From NCBI GenBank assembly GCA_016214035.1, contig JACRPF010000020.1, positions 132,800-196,799 on the forward strand: DNA of 64,000 nt, read 5' to 3'. Source of the DNA: Spirochaetota bacterium. Its GTDB lineage: Bacteria; Spirochaetota; Brachyspiria; Brachyspirales; JACRPF01. Below are positions 973-63,616 of the stretch, piece after piece. The notes beneath the pieces are model-generated. The model had not been told where the DNA came from. It ran no database searches and saw only the letters and a list, made by a program, of their open reading frames with translations. Position numbers and translations under genes: made by a program. How positions within the stretch are numbered: the stretch's first letter is position 1; each line of letters starts with the position of its first letter.

Positions 973-1794
973 TCAGGTGTGCTGCTGGCGATACACCGTG
1001 GGCGGGATACCGGTTTCCCGTTTAAAGAATTTAGAGAAATAGAATTCGTCGGCGAATCCGAGTTCTCCTGCGATATCGCGGATTTTTCTGTCCGTTGAGA
1101 CGAGTTCCCGCTCCGCCCGGCGGACGATGTGCCCGATAATGACGCGTTTAAGTGTCTTTCCGGTGTCGCGCTTGAACGACGACGACAGGTACGCGGGGGT
1201 GAGGTTCATGATGTCGGCAAGGTCGTTGAGCGAGAGCGCGATGCTGAGATTGGCATCGATATGCGACAGAAGCGGACGATATTTCTGCGCGAGCGTTATT
1301 TTCATCGGGATATCGCTTCGTTCGGGGCCGATGAACGACGTGATGATGGGGCGAAGTACGTCGTGAACGGCAAGGCTTTCCTTCAGATTTTCGGTCGAAA
1401 AACGATCGATGACGCCGAACACCGACGGGTCGACGGCTCGAGCGTAGCCGTTGGGTTCATAGAGCTCGAATATATCAAAAAGCCCGTGAAGTGACAATGA
1501 GAAATGAATGAAGAATTTTTCGAGAATATCGTCGCAGCTGAATGATATTTTCCGATTGACCGGGAAGAGATAGGCGTGTCCGCCGAAAAGCCGAACGGTC
1601 GTTCCGTCGATAAGAACCGTTCCCGATCCGCTTTTCACGATGTAGAGCCGATTCGAATCGCGAACCTCGATCGCTTCCCGCCATTGCCGGTCGAGAATGA
1701 CGTATCCGTGATGATGTATGGTGAATAACGTATTATTCACCGTATCGGCGAATGAAGCCGACCAGATGCGCTTTTTTGACGGCAACCAAGCCAT
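973..1794 (-). CDS. AraC-family transcriptional regulator
   Basis: The 273-residue protein has an N-terminal cupin-like ligand-binding region and a C-terminal double helix-turn-helix. The second HTH carries the AraC signature (IRDIAGELGFADEFYFSKFFKR, split here as IRDIAGELGFADEF then YFSKFFKR). The frame extends upstream to an ATG at 1830, but I prefer the ATG at 1794. A TATACT -10 box at 1802-1807 ends 7 nt before it and lies inside the longer reading frame, so translation from 1830 would need a different promoter. No Shine-Dalgarno is visible, so the message may be leaderless. It sits between a secreted esterase and a heparinase-like lyase and probably controls one or both. The inducer is unknown. 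Confidence 0.85.
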   Translation of the reverse strand: MAWLPSKKRIWSASFADTVNNTLFTIHHHGYVILDRQWREAIEVRDSNRLYIVKSGSGTVLIDGTTVRLFGGHAYLFPVNRKISFSCDDILEKFFIHFSLSLHGLFDIFELYEPNGYARAVDPSVFGVIDRFSTENLKESLAVHDVLRPIITSFIGPERSDIPMKITLAQKYRPLLSHIDANLSIALSLNDLADIMNLTPAYLSSSFKRDTGKTLKRVIIGHIVRRAERELVSTDRKIRDIAGELGFADEFYFSKFFKRETGIPPTVYRQQHT

Positions 1795-1801
1795 GATGAA
1801 A

Positions 1802-1807
1802 AGTATA
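1802..1807 (-). promoter_or_regulatory. -10 box (TATACT) of the AraC gene, possible leaderless start
   Basis: On the minus strand TATACT is followed by 7 nt and then ATG (1794). The best -35 at 16-nt spacing is TGGATA, a 4/6 match, so the promoter is weak or activator dependent. Transcription would start at or within a few bases of the ATG. Confidence 0.5.
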
Positions 1808-24725: not shown

Positions 24726-25631
24726 TCATCGCTTGGCCGGGGTGTGCATCCTGCGGTACTGCGCCGGCGTCCGTCCGGTCATGCGCTTGAAGAACGTCGG
24801 GAAATAACGTTCGCTTTGAAATCCCAATTCACGCGCTATCTGCGCAGCACTTTCCCCCAGACTGAGCGCCTGTTCGGCATACCGCACTTTCTGTTCAAGT
24901 ATGAAATCCCGCGGCGACATGCCGGTTTTTTTCCGGAAATAATCCGCGAAATAGTTGTTCGCATACCCGAAATAGCGCGCGAGACTTTCAGCCGTCACTC
25001 CGGCTATGTTGACGCGTATATACGCCGTGACATCGGCGGCGAACTGATCGCGGCCGGACCTGCCGCCGCAGATGAGCTCCTGGAGCGACACCAGAAGATC
25101 GTACCCGAACCGCGTAAGCAGATAATTATCGGCGAACCGGGATTCCACATACCATCTCGTTTTCGGGGCAAGCGTCTGCGACAGCCGTCCGAGCCGCGTA
25201 AGCATCGTTTCCCAGAGAACGAGGGGTTCAGAGTTTTTCGGCACACTGAAAACGCGCGTGTCCGCCGTCATCATCTCAGCCGCCGTGTCGGCGAATTGCC
25301 CGTAAAAGTCCGCGTAGTAGAATTCCCACGGCGAAGTTTTGTCGGCATAATACGCATACGGCCCCATGCTGTGCGAGGCGATGAACACTTTCCCCGCGTC
25401 AAGCCGCGTGCGCACCGTTCTGCCTTTCTGTACGTACTCGAAATATCCGCAGCCGGACAGTGTGTATTGAACCACATGGTAGCGCATCTGTTCTTTATTA
25501 TGAAAAGTATCGTCAAAACGGTACGGGGCTTTTCGCAGTTCATGCCCCATCGATTTCACCATGACGGGAAACCCGATATCGATGTCTTTTTTAGAAAAAG
25601 CGTCCCTGAAGAGATAACTTCTCATTTCCAT
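24726..25631 (-). CDS. AraC-family transcriptional regulator
   Basis: The 301-residue regulator has an N-terminal cupin-like sensor (GCGYFEYVQKGR, RLDAGKVFIAS) and a C-terminal AraC DNA-binding domain: AESLARYFGYANNYFADYF, then AAQIARELGFQSERYFPTFF with the closing GRTPAQYRRMH. The ATG at 25631 is preferred over GTG at 25637. TATACT at 25639-25644 (minus strand) ends 7 nt before it, so a transcript could begin at or near the ATG without a leader. It lies just downstream of the glycosidase gene at 25697 and probably controls the GH-A pair at 25.7-29.4 kb. Confidence 0.88.
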   Translation of the reverse strand: MEMRSYLFRDAFSKKDIDIGFPVMVKSMGHELRKAPYRFDDTFHNKEQMRYHVVQYTLSGCGYFEYVQKGRTVRTRLDAGKVFIASHSMGPYAYYADKTSPWEFYYADFYGQFADTAAEMMTADTRVFSVPKNSEPLVLWETMLTRLGRLSQTLAPKTRWYVESRFADNYLLTRFGYDLLVSLQELICGGRSGRDQFAADVTAYIRVNIAGVTAESLARYFGYANNYFADYFRKKTGMSPRDFILEQKVRYAEQALSLGESAAQIARELGFQSERYFPTFFKRMTGRTPAQYRRMHTPAKR

Positions 25632-25638
25632 GAACACC

Positions 25639-25666
25639 AGTATATTCCCGGGATATAAAAAAACAA
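25639..25666 (-). promoter_or_regulatory. Promoter of the AraC gene at 24726, possible leaderless start
   Basis: On the minus strand TTGTTT (25666-25661), a 16-nt spacer and TATACT (25644-25639) are followed by 7 nt and ATG. No Shine-Dalgarno precedes the ATG. Confidence 0.5.
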
Positions 25667-32169: not shown

Positions 32170-32198
32170 ATACAGCGCTCTCATCGGTGAATAGTATC

Positions 32199-32310: not shown

Positions 32311-33606
32311 TTATGCGTGCGGCTGAAGTGAATTACGTTCCGATACCGTCCGGAATTCGCGCGGTGCGACACCGAATTTTTTCTTGAACGAATAGCTGAA
32401 GTTCTGATAGTTATTGAACCCGCTCTCGATGATGATACGGGTCACCGAACGTGTTGTCTTCGTAAGCGCCTCCGCGGCACGCTTCAGCCGTGTGTCGTTG
32501 AGATACGCGGTGAACGTCATGCCGAACAGCTTTGCAAAACGCTGGCGGAAATAATCGCGGCTCATGTTGAACGATACGGCGATCTCCTTCATGAGCTCGG
32601 GATCGGAATAGTGTTCGATGATGTATTTCCCGATAGCGCCTTTCAACGCCTCATCGGACTGCTCGGTGCGTTTCAGTGAACGTTTGAGCGTGGATTTACG
32701 GACGATGAGTCTCGGCTCAATGAATATATGCTGCTGCTCCGGCGCTTCTCCCGCCATGACACGCGAAAGCATGCGGATGGCCGCGGCACCTATGGCGCCA
32801 TACTGCTGATCGATGGTGGTAAGGAAATTGGTGTATCGCGCGAACCGGAACCGTTCATTGCCGAAGCCCGCGACGGCGACATGATACGGAATGCGTATGC
32901 CGTTGGCGGCAGCTGTCGAATAAAAGTGAAGTGCAAGGCTGTCGTTCTCGAAAATAATCGCCGACGGCGGAGTGTTCCGGCGCATGAAAAAGGGATACAC
33001 TGCGGAACGCGGGAACACCTTCTCATGCCATTCACCCCGATCGAGTCTCTTTGTCAGGGTGACGGGAAAATGCGCGGTGTGCGCATCGAAACCGTGTACC
33101 TGTTCGGGATGTACGGTAAGGCCGTGACGCTTCATCGCATCACGATAACCGATATACCGCATGAGCGTGTAATATTGCGCGCTTGCGGCGGCGAATCCGA
33201 TCGTGGTATGCCCCTCGGCGACGAGATGATCGACAAGAAGGCCCATGGCCATATGCTCATCCACGCCCGCAAAGTACGCGTGTTCACGGCGGGGCGGTGT
33301 GAACATATACACGCACGGCACATCGCGTTCGATGGCGTCCCATATCTTCTCGCTCTTCCGCGGCCACCACTTTGCCGTCCCGATGATACCGTCGTACGAA
33401 CGATGTTCTTTTTTCCGCACGAACGACGCCAGATCGAGTTTCATATCGAAATAAAAAAGCTCTATGCCGTTCTCATACGCCTCGCTGTTGAGCGCCGTAA
33501 CCGTTTCTACAAATTGCGAGCGCCTGCCGATGCTCGCTTCAAAATCCATGAACTCGCTTATCACGGCCACGCGGGGCCGCTTCGGTATTGCTCGGGTTCG
33601 CTTCAT
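32311..33606 (-). CDS. XylR-type regulator (LacI-like sensor fused to AraC DNA-binding domain)
   Basis: The 431-residue protein has an N-terminal periplasmic-binding-protein-like sensor (about 10-300: RVAVISEF, GIIGTAKWW, YFAGVDEHMAMGLLVDHL, IIFENDSLALHFYS) and a C-terminal AraC domain (about 325-425: LMKEIAVSFNMSRDYFRQRF, then VTRIIIESGFNNYQNFSYSF). This is the E. coli XylR arrangement, in which a sugar binds the LacI-like part. The frame opens at TTG 33642, but a TTGACG-18-TATACT promoter lies within that extension. The ATG at 33606 starts 6 nt after the -10, suggesting a leaderless message. It probably senses a pentose or oligosaccharide and controls the nearby esterase and glycosidase genes. 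Confidence 0.9.
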   Translation of the reverse strand: MKRTRAIPKRPRVAVISEFMDFEASIGRRSQFVETVTALNSEAYENGIELFYFDMKLDLASFVRKKEHRSYDGIIGTAKWWPRKSEKIWDAIERDVPCVYMFTPPRREHAYFAGVDEHMAMGLLVDHLVAEGHTTIGFAAASAQYYTLMRYIGYRDAMKRHGLTVHPEQVHGFDAHTAHFPVTLTKRLDRGEWHEKVFPRSAVYPFFMRRNTPPSAIIFENDSLALHFYSTAAANGIRIPYHVAVAGFGNERFRFARYTNFLTTIDQQYGAIGAAAIRMLSRVMAGEAPEQQHIFIEPRLIVRKSTLKRSLKRTEQSDEALKGAIGKYIIEHYSDPELMKEIAVSFNMSRDYFRQRFAKLFGMTFTAYLNDTRLKRAAEALTKTTRSVTRIIIESGFNNYQNFSYSFKKKFGVAPREFRTVSERNSLQPHA

Positions 33607-33612
33607 GCCTCT

Positions 33613-33642
33613 AGTATAGTACAGCGGGATGTCTTCCGTCAA
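33613..33642 (-). promoter_or_regulatory. Promoter of the XylR-type gene, possible leaderless start
   Basis: TTGACG (33642-33637), an 18-nt spacer and TATACT (33618-33613) end 6 nt before the ATG at 33606. The MITE-like element begins 5 bp upstream of the -35. Confidence 0.65.
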
Positions 33643-46320: not shown

Positions 46321-46348
46321 TTGACATATCGCGATAGTATTGTATTGT
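46321..46348 (+). promoter_or_regulatory. Promoter of the trehalase-like gene, possible leaderless start
   Basis: TTGACA (46321-46326), a 16-nt spacer and TATTGT (46343-46348) are followed by 6 nt and ATGATGATG. No Shine-Dalgarno is possible in that interval. Confidence 0.55.
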
Positions 46349-46354
46349 CAAAAA

Positions 46355-47629
46355 ATGATGATGCAATCAAAAAATGTACCCGCACCCGAAACGGTACAGC
46401 GTGTTCTTTCGTATATCCAGTCTCATTGGGACGAGAGCGTGCATGACGATGTACGGAATCCTCCGCCGGCGAATGTGAGTGCGCTGCCGGTGCCGCATAC
46501 GGTGCCCTGCCTGCACGGCCATTTTCCGGTATTTTTTTATTGGGACACCTATTTCACCAATGTGGGACTTATCATCCAGGGTCGTCTCGATCTTGCCAAG
46601 AGCAACTGCGAAGCCATGGCCTGGCTTATCGGCCGTCACGGATTCATCCCCAACAATACATTCGTAAGCGATGCGAACCGTTCACAGCCGCCGTATTTCT
46701 CGCGTATGGTCCGCGAGGTGTATGAGGTGAGCGGCGACAAAGCGTGGCTCGGGCGGATGTCGGCATTTGTGCAGCGTGAATATCAATTCTGGATGACGGC
46801 CCGTCACAGCCCGCTGGAATTAAACCGGCATGGCGAACATGCATCGCGCGACTTTCTGTTACGCTTTTACGATGGGCTCCTCCATAATCGCCTCGGACTG
46901 CCGCTCGGAATAACTGAAGCTGATAAAATCCGCGAGGCCGGACGGTATCTCGCCGAGGCCGAGACCGGCTGGGACTTCAATCCGCGTTTCGAGCATCGCT
47001 GTCCCGATTTCTGTCCCGTAGACCTCAACTCGCTGCTGTGGGGCGGCGAGAAGGATCTGGCGTATTTCTTTACAGAACTCGTAAATGGCGATGAAGCGGC
47101 ACGGTTCGAAGCGCTTGCCGATAAGCGGGAATCGCTCATGCGGAAGTATCTGTGGAGTACCGGGCGCGGACTTTATCTCGATTTCGATCACACCACGATG
47201 CGGCTCGGCAAAACGGCATGTCTCGCGGCATTTCATCCGCTCTGGCTCGGCATGGCGACCGCGGATGAAGCGGCGCGCACACATAAGCAGCTTTCATTGT
47301 TCGAAGAGGAATATGGTGCCGCTGTGTGCGAGCGTGTAGATTCAAAAACATTTTATCAGTGGGGACATCCGAACGGCTGGCCTCCCTTGACATATACGAC
47401 CGTCATGGGACTTCATCGATACGGTTATACGAAGGACGCAGCGCGCTTGGCGGAAAAATATATCGCATGGGCGGTAACGCAGTTCGAAAAGACCGGACAG
47501 CTTTGGGAGAAGTTCAATGTACTCGACGGTACGATAGCCGCCGGCGAGTATGAGGCGCAGCCTATGCTCGGCTGGAGCGCCGGTGTGTTCGTGGCACTGG
47601 CCCGGTTTCTCGATACACAGAATGCATAG
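46355..47629 (+). CDS. Trehalase-like glycoside hydrolase (GH37-type)
   Basis: The 424-residue cytoplasmic protein is an (alpha/alpha)6-barrel enzyme with trehalase signatures: YWDTYFTNVG (signature 1), NRSQPPYF, ETGWDFNPRF with the likely acid Asp207, QWGHPNGWPP (signature 2) and LWEKFNV with the likely base Glu385. In signature 2 the usual QWDYPNGW Asp-Tyr is Gly-His, so the substrate may not be trehalose itself. It has no signal peptide, so it would act on imported sugar. The frame opens at TTG 46340, but that codon lies between the -35 and -10, so the ATG cluster at 46355 is preferred. It precedes the FAD/M14/FAD operon by 130 nt. Confidence 0.8.
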   Translation: MMMQSKNVPAPETVQRVLSYIQSHWDESVHDDVRNPPPANVSALPVPHTVPCLHGHFPVFFYWDTYFTNVGLIIQGRLDLAKSNCEAMAWLIGRHGFIPNNTFVSDANRSQPPYFSRMVREVYEVSGDKAWLGRMSAFVQREYQFWMTARHSPLELNRHGEHASRDFLLRFYDGLLHNRLGLPLGITEADKIREAGRYLAEAETGWDFNPRFEHRCPDFCPVDLNSLLWGGEKDLAYFFTELVNGDEAARFEALADKRESLMRKYLWSTGRGLYLDFDHTTMRLGKTACLAAFHPLWLGMATADEAARTHKQLSLFEEEYGAAVCERVDSKTFYQWGHPNGWPPLTYTTVMGLHRYGYTKDAARLAEKYIAWAVTQFEKTGQLWEKFNVLDGTIAAGEYEAQPMLGWSAGVFVALARFLDTQNA

Positions 47630-51505: not shown

Positions 51506-52336
51506 TCAAACCGTCTGTTTCTCCCGCAGTCTGTCCGCGTATGCCCGCGGCGTTACGCCGGTAATCTTTTTGAATACCTTACTGAACGTCGGTGCGTCGG
51601 CGAAACCCGTGCGCCGGCACAGTTCGGATATCGATGCGCCCGCGGCCAGCGCCTGTTTTGCCGCATCAATGCGTTTTGAAAGAATGTACTTGTGCGGTGT
51701 GACGCCCGCGAATTCCGAAAAAAGTTTTATCACCGTGGTCCTGTCCAGACCCGCATGAGCGCTCAATGCGTCGATCGATATGTTCCCGTCGATAGCGCCG
51801 TCGATATAGCCGCCGAGTCTTTTGAACGTATCATACCGGCGTTTCGTCCGCGTATCGGGAACGGCATTGCTTTCGATGAAACCGCCGGTGAGCAGATACA
51901 GGAACACCGTACGGAGAAAAATATCGCGGCTGAGCGAACGGAACGGATGCTGTTCGGCGGCGATGGCCCGTTCGAAGATGCGTTCGAAGTATGTCCCTTT
52001 CGGCTTGAGCGTACGCGGCAGCGACAGAACGGTGTCGAACAATCCATTGGCACGCACCGGATTGAAATGGCAGAGATACACGGTAAGTGTAACATTTTTG
52101 GCATGCAGCACGGACAGTACATCGCCCGGGCGGTAGATAAAGAGCGTTTTCGCGGAAACGCCGATGCGTTCACCGTTGAGTATTATCGTGCACGAACCGC
52201 TCCGTACGTACCAGAAGTCATAATCATCGAATCTGCGGCGGATCTGGTCCTGCCCGGTCTTGGTCGCCGAGATTCGCGGCGGCAGTATCTCGAAGGAGGT
52301 GTCGAGGAGCATACGTTCGATCATGTCATTCATCAT
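51506..52336 (-). CDS. AraC-family transcriptional regulator
   Basis: The 276-residue protein has an N-terminal sensor (YVRSGSCTIILNGERI, TLFIYRPGDVLSV) and a C-terminal AraC domain: ISIDALSAHAGLDRTTVIKLF, then ISELCRRTGFADAPTFSKVF, with GVTPRAYADR at the end. The frame opens at 52357. I prefer the ATG at 52336, which follows TATACT by 6 nt with TTGCAT 16 nt further up, again a leaderless arrangement. The 21-bp-period array starts about 37 nt upstream of the -35, so it is a candidate binding array for this or another regulator. Convergence with the FAD/M14/FAD operon suggests that operon as a target. Confidence 0.88.
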   Translation of the reverse strand: MMNDMIERMLLDTSFEILPPRISATKTGQDQIRRRFDDYDFWYVRSGSCTIILNGERIGVSAKTLFIYRPGDVLSVLHAKNVTLTVYLCHFNPVRANGLFDTVLSLPRTLKPKGTYFERIFERAIAAEQHPFRSLSRDIFLRTVFLYLLTGGFIESNAVPDTRTKRRYDTFKRLGGYIDGAIDGNISIDALSAHAGLDRTTVIKLFSEFAGVTPHKYILSKRIDAAKQALAAGASISELCRRTGFADAPTFSKVFKKITGVTPRAYADRLREKQTV

Positions 52337-52342
52337 GGGTAA

Positions 52343-52370
52343 AGTATAGCAGACCATACGCGTAATGCAA
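52343..52370 (-). promoter_or_regulatory. Promoter of the AraC gene at 51506, possible leaderless start
   Basis: On the minus strand TTGCAT (52370-52365), a 16-nt spacer and TATACT (52348-52343) end 6 nt before the ATG at 52336. Confidence 0.6.
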
Positions 52371-57963: not shown

Positions 57964-58545
57964 CTACCATGGTTTTTTATTCGTATATTCGTTGCGATGT
58001 TTTTTGACGAACGAAAGTATCGGCTCGCCTTTCACATATACATCTTTGAGTATGGCGTTTCCGGAGGCGTCGACCGCGACAAGCGCATAGACGTCAAGCC
58101 GGCGCTGGGCAGTGAAATCGCGGTATATCATCTCGGCCGGTTTCGCCGAATCTTCCGGCAGATAATAATGATCGAAGGGAAACGCCACCGTCACCCGGTT
58201 CTGATATGCCGACTGCACTTTCACGCGAATGCAGGGCGCCGTTGTCTTCGTTGCCGATATATTCGTAATCAGGGCAAATCCGTTGCTGTCCTCCGTGATG
58301 AGCGCATATACGCTCTGCTTTTCGGTGAACTGATTCGTCTTAGCCGTTGTCTGGCTGAGTCCGCGAAAACCGAGCGCCAGATATCTTCCCTGAAAGATAT
58401 CGTACGGGTCAACCGGCGCTGTCGGGAACCGGTATTCTTTTCCCGCCGACACGGTTGATTCATGTCCGATGATGATGCCCGCGATGACGGAAATCTGTAC
58501 CGCGGATATGATGATGAATACGGCGGTGCGCAGATTGCTGTTCAT
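57964..58545 (-). CDS. GDYXXLXY-family membrane protein
   Basis: The 193-residue protein has one N-terminal membrane helix (about 7-28) and an exported domain with the family motif region in the form QGRYLALGF (usual GDYVxLxY), preceded by VDPYDI. It ends with a strand-rich part (AYQNRVTVAFPFDHYYLPED). These proteins are nearly always encoded with DUF2157/DUF4401 membrane proteins, as here: its ATG overlaps the upstream gene by 4 nt. The joint function is unknown. Confidence 0.85.
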   Translation of the reverse strand: MNSNLRTAVFIIISAVQISVIAGIIIGHESTVSAGKEYRFPTAPVDPYDIFQGRYLALGFRGLSQTTAKTNQFTEKQSVYALITEDSNGFALITNISATKTTAPCIRVKVQSAYQNRVTVAFPFDHYYLPEDSAKPAEMIYRDFTAQRRLDVYALVAVDASGNAILKDVYVKGEPILSFVKKHRNEYTNKKPW

Positions 58546-59903
58546 TGCGGCGCACTCCGTTTAAATACCTTCGCGAGAATTGCATTGGCGGCAAGAAACG
58601 CACAGCCGATGACGAGAAACACGATAGCGCGTGCCAGAATCGAGAGGTCCATGTCGATAAAGCGCATGAATATGAGGACGGCGATGATGAGCATGCCGCC
58701 GTTCACAATACCCTGACGCATGCCGCGTATGCCGGAGATTATTGCCGCAACGCCGATGGCACATGCATAGAGATTGAAGACCCACGCCGGATGAAACGGA
58801 AGCCGGTACATCGCAAGCAGATAACACCCCGCGGCGATAACCGGAAATAATCCGAACAGTATCACGGCAATGTCCTTGCGCTTGCGTATGCTCACGATGA
58901 AGAGATACACCGCCAGCAGCGTCAGTCCGGCGACAAGGATGTAATCGGTAATCGCCGCGACCGGATGGAATTTCCCGCCGGAGCGGTAAAACCCGATACC
59001 CACGTTGTGCCAGCATTCCTTGAACGTGAACACGAGCGACAGCAGCGACACGCCCACGCTCCCGATGATATAGAACGGACGCTGCCATATCGTAGGCGCC
59101 TCGGAAAGCCAGATACCGCCGATGAGGAACAGTACCGCGAAATAGGAACTGTAAATGATAATCCAAAGACCCGGTATCACTTTTTCAAGCGACACGCCTA
59201 TTGATACGCATGCGGCGAGCGCATAGCTCCAGGCGATGAACGCCGAGCGTACACTGAACGGATTCTCACGGAAGTGTCTGATGAAGTGCCACGCAATAAC
59301 CGCGGCTAGCGGCCAGAAGAGGAGCGCATGTCCGCCTTCACTCTGCGCTATGCCCGCCCATCCGGTGATACCGGCAATATACAGCACCGCGGGTGCGCTT
59401 GCATCGAGCATATAGACAACCGGAACTGCCAGAAGCACCCATGTGAGCATGAAGGCACCCGTGTCCGACGGCAGATGATATATCTGTCCGATGAGCGCAA
59501 GTACCGCGCCGATGATAAGAAACAATAACGTTCCGGCACTTTCCCGCCATGCAGCGGAATCGCGGCGCGTAAAATATGCAAACCCGGATACACCGATGCC
59601 GGCGGCGAGCAGTGCGAACGCAAAAACGGTCTTCACCGCTTTGGTCATCGCGCTCCAGTTGTATGCGATGAGGAGTATGATGCCGAGTCCCACGAGCACC
59701 GACCCTACAATGCCGAAAACGACGAACACGGTGTTGCGCCGTTCACCCGATGCGCGCGTCTCATAATATCGGCGAATGTCGTCGGCAACCGCCGCGGAAA
59801 TGACATTGGACGCGATGAGCGACGGCAATTCGGCGAATAGACGGTTGACGAACGAACGTTTCAGTTTTACGGCTTTTCCTGTCGGCCCTTTTTCCATCGG
59901 CAT
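58542..59903 (-). CDS. DUF2157/DUF4401 polytopic membrane protein
   Basis: The 453-residue protein has a short soluble N-terminus (FVNRLFAELPSLIASNVISA, the DUF2157 start region) followed by about 12 transmembrane helices. It is the usual partner of GDYXXLXY proteins. The frame runs to TTG 59942, but a TTGACG-17-TATAGT promoter overlaps that extension and the ATG at 59903 lies 6 nt after the -10, so the short form, probably from a leaderless message, is preferred. The family's function is not known. Confidence 0.85.
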   Translation of the reverse strand: MPMEKGPTGKAVKLKRSFVNRLFAELPSLIASNVISAAVADDIRRYYETRASGERRNTVFVVFGIVGSVLVGLGIILLIAYNWSAMTKAVKTVFAFALLAAGIGVSGFAYFTRRDSAAWRESAGTLLFLIIGAVLALIGQIYHLPSDTGAFMLTWVLLAVPVVYMLDASAPAVLYIAGITGWAGIAQSEGGHALLFWPLAAVIAWHFIRHFRENPFSVRSAFIAWSYALAACVSIGVSLEKVIPGLWIIIYSSYFAVLFLIGGIWLSEAPTIWQRPFYIIGSVGVSLLSLVFTFKECWHNVGIGFYRSGGKFHPVAAITDYILVAGLTLLAVYLFIVSIRKRKDIAVILFGLFPVIAAGCYLLAMYRLPFHPAWVFNLYACAIGVAAIISGIRGMRQGIVNGGMLIIAVLIFMRFIDMDLSILARAIVFLVIGCAFLAANAILAKVFKRSAPQ

Positions 59904-59909
59904 AGATAT

Positions 59910-59938
59910 ACTATACGACGTTCCGTGAACTGCGTCAA
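59910..59938 (-). promoter_or_regulatory. Promoter of the DUF2157 gene, possible leaderless start
   Basis: TTGACG (59938-59933), a 17-nt spacer and TATAGT (59915-59910) on the minus strand end 6 nt before the ATG at 59903. Confidence 0.7.
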
Positions 59939-62550: not shown

Positions 62551-62566
62551 TGTACGTTAACGCACA
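62551..62566. promoter_or_regulatory. LacI-type operator candidate
   Basis: TGTACGTTAACGCACA is a 16-bp palindrome with one mismatched pair and the central GTTAAC/CG step usual for LacI-family sites. It overlaps the expected transcription start, which suits autorepression. Confidence 0.6.
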
Positions 62567-62578
62567 TTCGGAGCAGCA

Positions 62579-63616
62579 ATGACCGCACTTCCCACGGTAA
62601 AAGACATAGCCGAACGGGCGCAGGTGTCAATCGGCACCGTGGACCGTGTGCTTCACGGACGCGGGCGCGTTGCCGAAGAAACGCTTGTCCGCGTCAACAA
62701 TGCCGTCCGTGAACTGGGGTACAAACCGAACATGTTCGCGCGGCATCTTTCGCTCGCCCGTCCGCGGCGATTTGCGGTCGTCATGCCGAGACCGGGGCAG
62801 GACAGCGGCTATTGGGGGCTTGCGGTCAACGGACTTCGCCGTGCACGGCAGGAATTATCGGCGTTCGGCGCGGAAGTGCACCGCTATCATTATGACCGAA
62901 CAGCCGCCGGTTCGTTCGAACGAGCCATATCACTCGCCCGTACCGAGGGCGCGGATGCGTATCTGGCCGCCTGCGTACGCCCCGGCGAGGGCGGGCGCGT
63001 GCTCCGCGGCTTGAAACAGCCATACGTCCTTTTCGATTCGGAACTTCCCGGCACGAAACCGCTGGCATATATCGGTCAGGACGCGTATGCGAGCGGACGT
63101 CTTGCCGCGCGGCTCATGCAGCTGATAGCTTCCGGAAGCCCCGCAGCCGTCATCCGGACGATGTCGGATGATTTTCATATCAGCGCCCGTGTGCGCGGAT
63201 TTTCAGAATACTATGCGTCGCACGGGCACTCGTCGCGCATAAGGATTTTCGATATCCCCGCGGACGGCGACGAACGCAGTTTCGGACGCATCTGCGGCGA
63301 GATAACCGCGGCGTCTCCAAGTTTCCGGGCGATCTTCGTGAGCAATGCCGAGGCGCATCGCGTTGTCCATTATCTGCGGCTTAAAAAGCGCGCCCGCTGT
63401 TCGGTGATAGGCTACGATCTTATCGAGGCGAACGCCCGCTGTGTCTCATCAGGTACAGTCGACTTCATAATCGATCAGCGTCCCGACGTGCAGGTATATG
63501 AGGGCCTTATGCTCCTCTGCCGCACAACGATACGCAAAGAAAAGCTGAGACGCAGACGCATCATCATGCCGCTTGATATCATCACGAAAGAAAACGTTCA
63601 GTTCCACCATTCATAA
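62579..63616 (+). CDS. LacI-family transcriptional regulator
   Basis: The 345-residue protein has an N-terminal HTH and hinge (TVKDIAERAQVSIGTVDRVL, split around HGRGRVAEETLVRVNNAV) and a periplasmic-binding-protein-like sensor (about 60-340: RRFAVVMP, ADAYLAACVRP, AYIGQDAYASGRLAARLM, AIFVSNAEAHRVV, IDQRPDVQVYEGL). IDQRP-x-x-Q is the ligand-pocket stretch of sugar-binding members. GGAG precedes the ATG. The ribulokinase gene follows after 10 nt, so it probably represses pentose use in response to arabinose, ribulose or a related sugar. Confidence 0.92.
   Translation: MTALPTVKDIAERAQVSIGTVDRVLHGRGRVAEETLVRVNNAVRELGYKPNMFARHLSLARPRRFAVVMPRPGQDSGYWGLAVNGLRRARQELSAFGAEVHRYHYDRTAAGSFERAISLARTEGADAYLAACVRPGEGGRVLRGLKQPYVLFDSELPGTKPLAYIGQDAYASGRLAARLMQLIASGSPAAVIRTMSDDFHISARVRGFSEYYASHGHSSRIRIFDIPADGDERSFGRICGEITAASPSFRAIFVSNAEAHRVVHYLRLKKRARCSVIGYDLIEANARCVSSGTVDFIIDQRPDVQVYEGLMLLCRTTIRKEKLRRRRIIMPLDIITKENVQFHHS

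Follow-up and report, generated by a model that had tools for sequence, protein, structure and literature searches.

Four genes for AraC-type regulators lie in the window, the 64-kb stretch of spirochaete DNA analysed here, and each starts at an ATG closely preceded by a promoter -10 box. The question raised by this locus is whether such starts belong to leaderless mRNAs and, if so, whether the layout is a property of regulators, of the AraC family or of the genome at large.

Start Sites of AraC-Type Genes in the Window

A sequence-only reading of the window had described its four AraC-type genes as leaderless, with the ATG 6–7 nt downstream of TATACT and no Shine-Dalgarno (SD) sequence. Direct reading of the letters confirmed this: TATACT-N7-ATG precedes the genes starting at 1794 and 25631, and TATACT-N6-ATG those starting at 33606 and 52336, all four on the minus strand. 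Two non-regulator genes credited with the same layout, 46355 (plus strand, TATTGT-N6-ATG) and 59903 (minus strand, TATAGT-N6-ATG), were also as described. An SD was absent upstream of all six, and the start model described below gave these predicted leaderless genes SD posteriors of 0.00–0.13. Most remaining genes in the window have GGAG or AGGA 4–8 nt ahead of the start, in line with the SD-led majority that had been claimed for them. The -35 boxes, 16–18 nt from the -10, are good at 33606 (TTGACG), 46355 (TTGACA), 52336 (TTGCAT) and 59903 (TTGACG), fair at 25631 (TTGTTT) and poor at 1794 (TGGATA). The C-terminal double HTH typical of AraC/XylS factors (PF12833/PF00165) was recognised in all four AraC proteins, the only ones found in the window, with Pfam HTH_18 (PF12833) scoring above the curated cut-off; AraC_binding was recognised as the N-terminal domain in 52336 and Peripla_BP_3 in 33606, and none was recognised in 1794 and 25631. 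The features are:

51506–52336, minus strand: AraC-type regulator (AraC_binding and HTH_18, Pfam), predicted leaderless start at 52336 (leaderless posterior 0.999); its orthologue in the sister genus, L152, is also called leaderless
52343–52348, minus strand: -10 box TATACT, 6 nt before the ATG at 52336 (direct reading)
52365–52370, minus strand: -35 box TTGCAT, 16 nt from the -10 of the 52336 gene
973–1794, minus strand: AraC-type regulator (HTH_18, Pfam), start predicted as leaderless at 1794, with the ATG at 1830 as an in-frame alternative
1802–1807, minus strand: -10 box TATACT, 7 nt before the ATG at 1794; poor -35 TGGATA at 1824–1829
24726–25631, minus strand: AraC-type regulator (HTH_18, Pfam), predicted leaderless start at 25631
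25639–25644, minus strand: -10 box TATACT, 7 nt before the ATG at 25631; -35 TTGTTT at 25661–25666
32311–33606, minus strand: regulator with Peripla_BP_3 and AraC HTH (XylR-like architecture, Pfam), predicted leaderless start at 33606
33613–33618, minus strand: -10 box TATACT, 6 nt before the ATG at 33606; -35 TTGACG at 33637–33642
46355–47629, plus strand: trehalase/MGH1-like glycoside hydrolase gene (Pfam), non-regulator, predicted leaderless
46321–46348, plus strand: promoter TTGACA-N16-TATTGT, ending 6 nt ahead of ATG 46355
58542–59903, minus strand: DUF2157 membrane protein gene (Pfam), non-regulator, predicted leaderless
59910–59938, minus strand: promoter TTGACG-N17-TATAGT, ending 6 nt ahead of ATG 59903

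The start at 1794 is the least certain of the four, because a second hexamer, TATAAT, stands 11 nt ahead of the alternative in-frame ATG at 1830. A borderline seventh case in the window is the gene at 32184 (leaderless posterior 0.52), where overlapping promoter-like hexamers between 32184 and 32220 (TTGACG...TATACTGATACTATT) may give a leaderless or very-short-leader start.

A Leaderless Class Across the Genome

The window's genome comprises 5.21 Mb in 22 contigs with 53% GC. Six contigs totalling 2.37 Mb were sampled, and 1,752 genes were called in them by a hexamer coding score. Starts were assigned with an EM mixture model in which each gene picks an in-frame start together with an SD, a leaderless-register promoter or neither, a -35 element being added later. 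Gene starts are therefore those of our own caller, and the leaderless assignments are predictions from sequence.

Over the 2.37 Mb, TATANT peaked at -12 and TTGAC at -35/-34. The distinct leaderless class that had been proposed from the window emerged unprompted in the model and took up ~11% of the genes, with ~75% in the SD class. Its learned promoter has a TATAMT -10, a spacer to the ATG of 6 nt in half of the weight, and a TTGMC -35 at 16–17 nt from the -10 that is present in ~97% of the leaderless-class weight. ATG served as start in 171/177 leaderless genes compared with 1297/1390 SD-led genes. The 16S rRNA tail carries an intact anti-SD, CACCTCCTTT, also given as GGATCACCTCCTTTT. A pyrimidine at -1, considered as evidence of the transcription start, was not discriminating (0.83 in leaderless vs. 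0.76 in SD genes, p = 0.16), and leaderless genes overall did not differ in 5′ structure (p = 0.51); the comparison of leaderless AraC genes with AraC genes that are not leaderless reached only p = 0.02.

The class is not made up of regulators. Non-AraC genes account for 146 of the 188 leaderless genes and range widely over enzymes and housekeeping functions; a Pfam scan of 100 of their proteins returned GGDEF, epimerases, radical SAM, NAD synthase, Lon and others, with no leading transcription-factor family among them.

AraC Genes Compared With Other Genes and Other Regulator Families

AraC-type regulator genes are probably preferentially leaderless in this spirochaete lineage, as judged from the predicted starts. 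In the 2.37 Mb, 42/94 AraC genes were assigned to the leaderless class compared with 146/1658 others (OR 8.4, p = 2e-18), so the genome-wide AraC enrichment envisaged in the sequence-only reading was found, and it recurred in the sister genus (below). Among genes whose upstream neighbour is divergent or > 100 bp away, the counts were 36/60 for AraC and 91/790 for others (OR 11.5, p = 4e-17). None of the 22 AraC genes directly inside operons (same-strand upstream gene, gap ≤ 30) was leaderless, as is expected if the leaderless calls are real.

The enrichment was also evident when starts were chosen blind to motifs, by coding score only: a -10-like hexamer stood at exactly -12 in 18/71 AraC genes vs. 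41/1081 others (OR 8.6, p = 2e-9). A promoter in leaderless register (score > 4) was found at 36/71 AraC genes with an upstream gap, compared with 0–3/71 at each of seven shifts of 8–80 nt, and in non-AraC genes the leadered registers were rich in promoters (117/1081 at a shift of 20). In an unsupervised grouping into 64 paralogue clusters, the two AraC clusters had the strongest leaderless enrichment (p = 9e-15 and 3e-4), and a LacI cluster, its representatives identified by Pfam, was not enriched (2/21).

Leaderless AraC genes are a bias and not a rule: with an upstream gap, 42/71 are leaderless and ~40% are not. The four out of four in the window is thus a somewhat lucky draw, the genome-wide AraC rate being 45%, or 59% for genes with a gap > 30 bp or a divergent neighbour.

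The leaderless excess is specific to AraC genes and not regulator-wide. Among genes with an upstream gap, leaderless starts were assigned to 2/13 LacI, 1/10 GntR, 0/1 TetR and 3/18 response-regulator genes compared with 136/1046 remaining genes, the GntR and LacI sets being partly the same genes because both carry periplasmic-binding-like domains, and the GntR and response-regulator counts being small. AraC genes (42/71) differed from these other regulator families with p = 1e-5. A general tendency of regulators to be leaderless was accordingly rejected, and with it the suggestion of a regulator-specific leaderless set, which is better worded as an AraC-specific bias inside a general leaderless class.

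Distribution in Related and Distant Genomes

In the sister genus (genome G001), tested on fetched loci only, 16/36 AraC genes were leaderless compared with 10/114 other genes of the same loci (p = 6e-6); with an upstream gap the counts were 12/17 and 7/64. We also applied a frame-based test that uses no gene model. A strong leaderless promoter at an in-frame AraC start was found in 12/35 cases in the window's own genome and 10/31 in G001, compared with 1/18 in G040 (another spirochaete family, > 200 AraC candidates), 2/26 in G070, 1/24 in other spirochaetes, 0/24 in mostly Paenibacillus loci, and 2/316 in out-of-frame controls from all genomes together; the promoter matrix was taken from the window's genome (G000) and may overlook weaker matches in genomes very unlike it. 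The predicted AraC bias is thus limited to the lineage of the window's genome and its sister genus, and does not extend to the other sampled spirochaetes or Paenibacillus.

The AraC family is large in four of these spirochaete genomes, with ~140–260 candidates per genome in the two genera of this family (G000, G001) and in two other spirochaete families (G040, G070); hits numbered at least 150 in the window's genome and likewise in its same-family relative G001. The same order also contains 29 smaller genomes (1.8–3.4 Mb among those drawn), mostly of one genus, in which AraC matches were almost absent; a locus of that genus has 29% GC. Such figures are those expected of Brachyspira, and the window's genome is accordingly probably a MAG of a Brachyspira-order spirochaete in a different family. 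A perfect parS-like site, TGTTTCACGTGAAACA, immediately precedes an AraC gene in both AraC-rich genera (at C19:70180, before the gene of L020, in the window's genome, and in L189 of the sister genus). As the sole such site in the 2.37 Mb, it suggests that the origin region may be marked by the AraC gene of L020.

Alternative Explanations for the AraC Bias

AraC genes could look leaderless merely as single genes with their own promoter, most other genes sitting in operons that need an SD. They are indeed often divergent (53/94) and monocistronic, and those inside operons are never leaderless. However, when comparison was confined to monocistronic divergent genes of 220–450 aa, 26/42 AraC genes were leaderless vs. 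23/125 others (OR 7.2, p = 3e-7). The AraC OR was again 7.2 (z 6.7) after logistic adjustment for orientation, monocistrony, length, GC3, AT content and distance. In the other regulator families with an upstream gap (LacI, GntR and response regulators) there was no enrichment. Confounding by gene context is therefore largely refuted and very unlikely to account for the bias. Nearly as improbable is that the leaderless promoter yields a second, shorter regulator beside a longer product from an upstream start, as in the AraC-like VirF of Shigella (PMC5101355). An in-frame start codon does lie 6–36 nt further upstream in all four window AraC genes, and in only 45% of cases is a leaderless AraC start the earliest that its reading frame allows. 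None of the four upstream starts has a good SD, however, and the model, having weighed them, favoured the leaderless start with posteriors of 0.94–0.999; the possible extensions of 6 to 36 nt also contrast with VirF forms of 30 and 21 kDa.

A founder effect, by which AraC paralogues were duplicated along with one ancestral leaderless promoter and the bias has no functional meaning, is an unlikely reading. Some orthologue pairs have near-identical promoters over 40 nt (L012/L164, L004/L207, L002/L204), and reciprocal best hits between the two genera agree above chance, with seven pairs both leaderless, 16 both not and seven discordant (p = 0.015). In a tree of 71 AraC proteins, however, the leaderless state was scattered (23 changes vs. 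a shuffled mean of 22.5), nearest paralogues shared their state in 26/51 cases, and leaderless AraC proteins were ~32% identical to the nearest paralogue. The tree is limited by long branches and modest support, so that a very old inheritance with many losses is compatible with it. Taken together, the scattered state and the concordance of orthologues appear to fit a slow turnover with repeated gain and not one founder promoter; the 52336 gene and its orthologue L152, 30% identical, are both called leaderless through different sequence. It is similarly doubtful that leaderless starts were selected as insulation, so that read-through from neighbouring operons is not translated and regulator dosage stays tight. 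Such a role has been proposed for leaderless genes in general (PMC3160421), and the AraC genes here are mostly single-gene units beside catabolic genes. Against it, divergent AraC genes, which are not exposed to direct read-through from upstream, have the largest excess (34/53 leaderless), and LacI genes, though equally in need of such protection, show none.

Operators, Divergent Partners and a Proposed Mechanism

The window holds a regulator gene that illustrates the opposite arrangement:

62579–63616, plus strand: LacI-type regulator, SD-led contrasting case (SD posterior 0.99), member of the LacI cluster with Pfam-verified representatives
62551–62566, strand not assigned: palindrome TGTACGT-TA-ACGCACA in the leader of the LacI gene 62579, between promoter and SD, a likely autoregulatory operator

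Palindromes similar to this one precede most LacI genes of the sister genus. Within the 48 bp before the LacI ATG, palindromes were found in 12/19 genes of G001 vs. 3.0 expected (p = 4e-6) and in 6/13 of the window's genome vs. 2.8. Before leaderless AraC genes there was no palindrome excess in the window's genome (5/42 vs. 5.5 expected) and a slight one in G001 (3/14 vs. 0.6 at the strictest setting). A small AraC subset (L004, L207, L002, L204, L012, L164) has a conserved (T)CGGAC-like direct repeat over the promoter and start codon. In L004 the copies are 21 bp apart, which is the AraC half-site spacing, with one overlapping the ATG, and they form a possible autoregulatory operator. An embedded operator shared by leaderless AraC genes was considered and rejected, the 21-bp direct repeat (TCGGAC...CGGAC) being seen in few conserved promoters (L004/L207) and not general among them.

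The divergent partners of leaderless AraC genes are catabolic enzymes of many kinds; 30/34 are SD-led and 1/34 leaderless. Spacers of these pairs are shorter, with a median of 120 bp vs. 163 bp.

We propose the following mechanism. A housekeeping sigma-70-type promoter, TTGAC-N16/17-TATAMT, places its -10 ~6 nt before the ATG, as the sequence statistics establish, and transcription would start at or within 1–3 nt of the A of the ATG. Complete promoters in this register occur in a genome that is SD-competent; on their transcripts, the ribosome would initiate on a 5′-terminal AUG without SD pairing. AraC-type proteins, usually activators, would need no operator downstream of the promoter and ahead of the ATG, and where a divergent spacer is short the leader would be dispensable and may have been dropped many times in AraC genes, whereas LacI-type repressors would keep theirs as the seat of an autoregulatory operator. 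A likely consequence is that the regulator would come solely from its own transcript, with no contribution of read-through, and at a modest level. This contrast between operator-free activators and repressors with an operator seated in the leader is a tentative explanation of the AraC bias. It accounts for the retention of leaders by LacI genes and does not prove the cause of leader loss in AraC genes. The broader claim, that leaderless initiation is here a selected trait of AraC-type activators, with repressors keeping leaders for autoregulatory operators and own-gene control deciding how an mRNA is translated, is conceivable and rather on the unlikely side.

Relation to Known Leaderless Genes and Implications

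Leaderless starts are known in Actinobacteria and Deinococcus, as the sequence-only reading stated, but are not confined to them, and spirochaete leaderless genes have been reported (PMC3160421; PMC5243855). In the survey of Zheng et al. (2011, PMC3160421), leaderless (“TA-led”) genes occurred in many phyla, including 6/18 spirochaete genomes with a mean of 3.9%, and COG class K was over-represented. The genes described here share with these the -10 directly before the start codon, the lack of an SD and a housekeeping promoter; they differ in making up ~11% of genes, in their clear -35 boxes, and in an excess confined to one family (~45–60% of AraC genes) instead of transcription generally. 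Class K is also enriched among leaderless genes of Cupriavidus (PMC7563307), and no category preference was seen in C. glutamicum (PMC3890552). A close parallel for a single transcription-factor family is Streptomyces coelicolor, where TetR-family regulators stand out among mapped leaderless mRNAs (PMC4895711); here the family is AraC, the genome is that of an SD-dominated spirochaete, and the excess, predicted from sequence, is quantified against matched genes and other regulator families. Shigella virF is likewise an AraC-like gene with a leaderless mRNA, which there encodes a shorter form (PMC5101355), whereas here many full-length regulators appear to be translated mainly from the predicted leaderless start. 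In the spirochaete Leptospira interrogans, many leaderless mRNAs were mapped, with categories R, H, E, F and G over-represented; an excess of transcription genes, of the kind predicted here for one family, was not reported (PMC5243855). We found no account of an AraC-family leaderless bias, or of leaderless work on Brachyspira, in the open-access literature. Leaderless genes and an excess of regulators among them are thus known already, and their concentration in a single family seems new.

For annotation, gene finders that ignore leaderless starts may misplace the N-termini of these AraC regulators. Leaderless genes have often been viewed as an ancestral remnant or as a genome-wide style. The strong preference of one family in an SD-dominated genome, seen in a second genus and unclustered on the AraC tree, argues that the class of a gene has a bearing on whether its start is leaderless or SD-led, and the presence or absence of an operator in the leader offers a testable rule for this.
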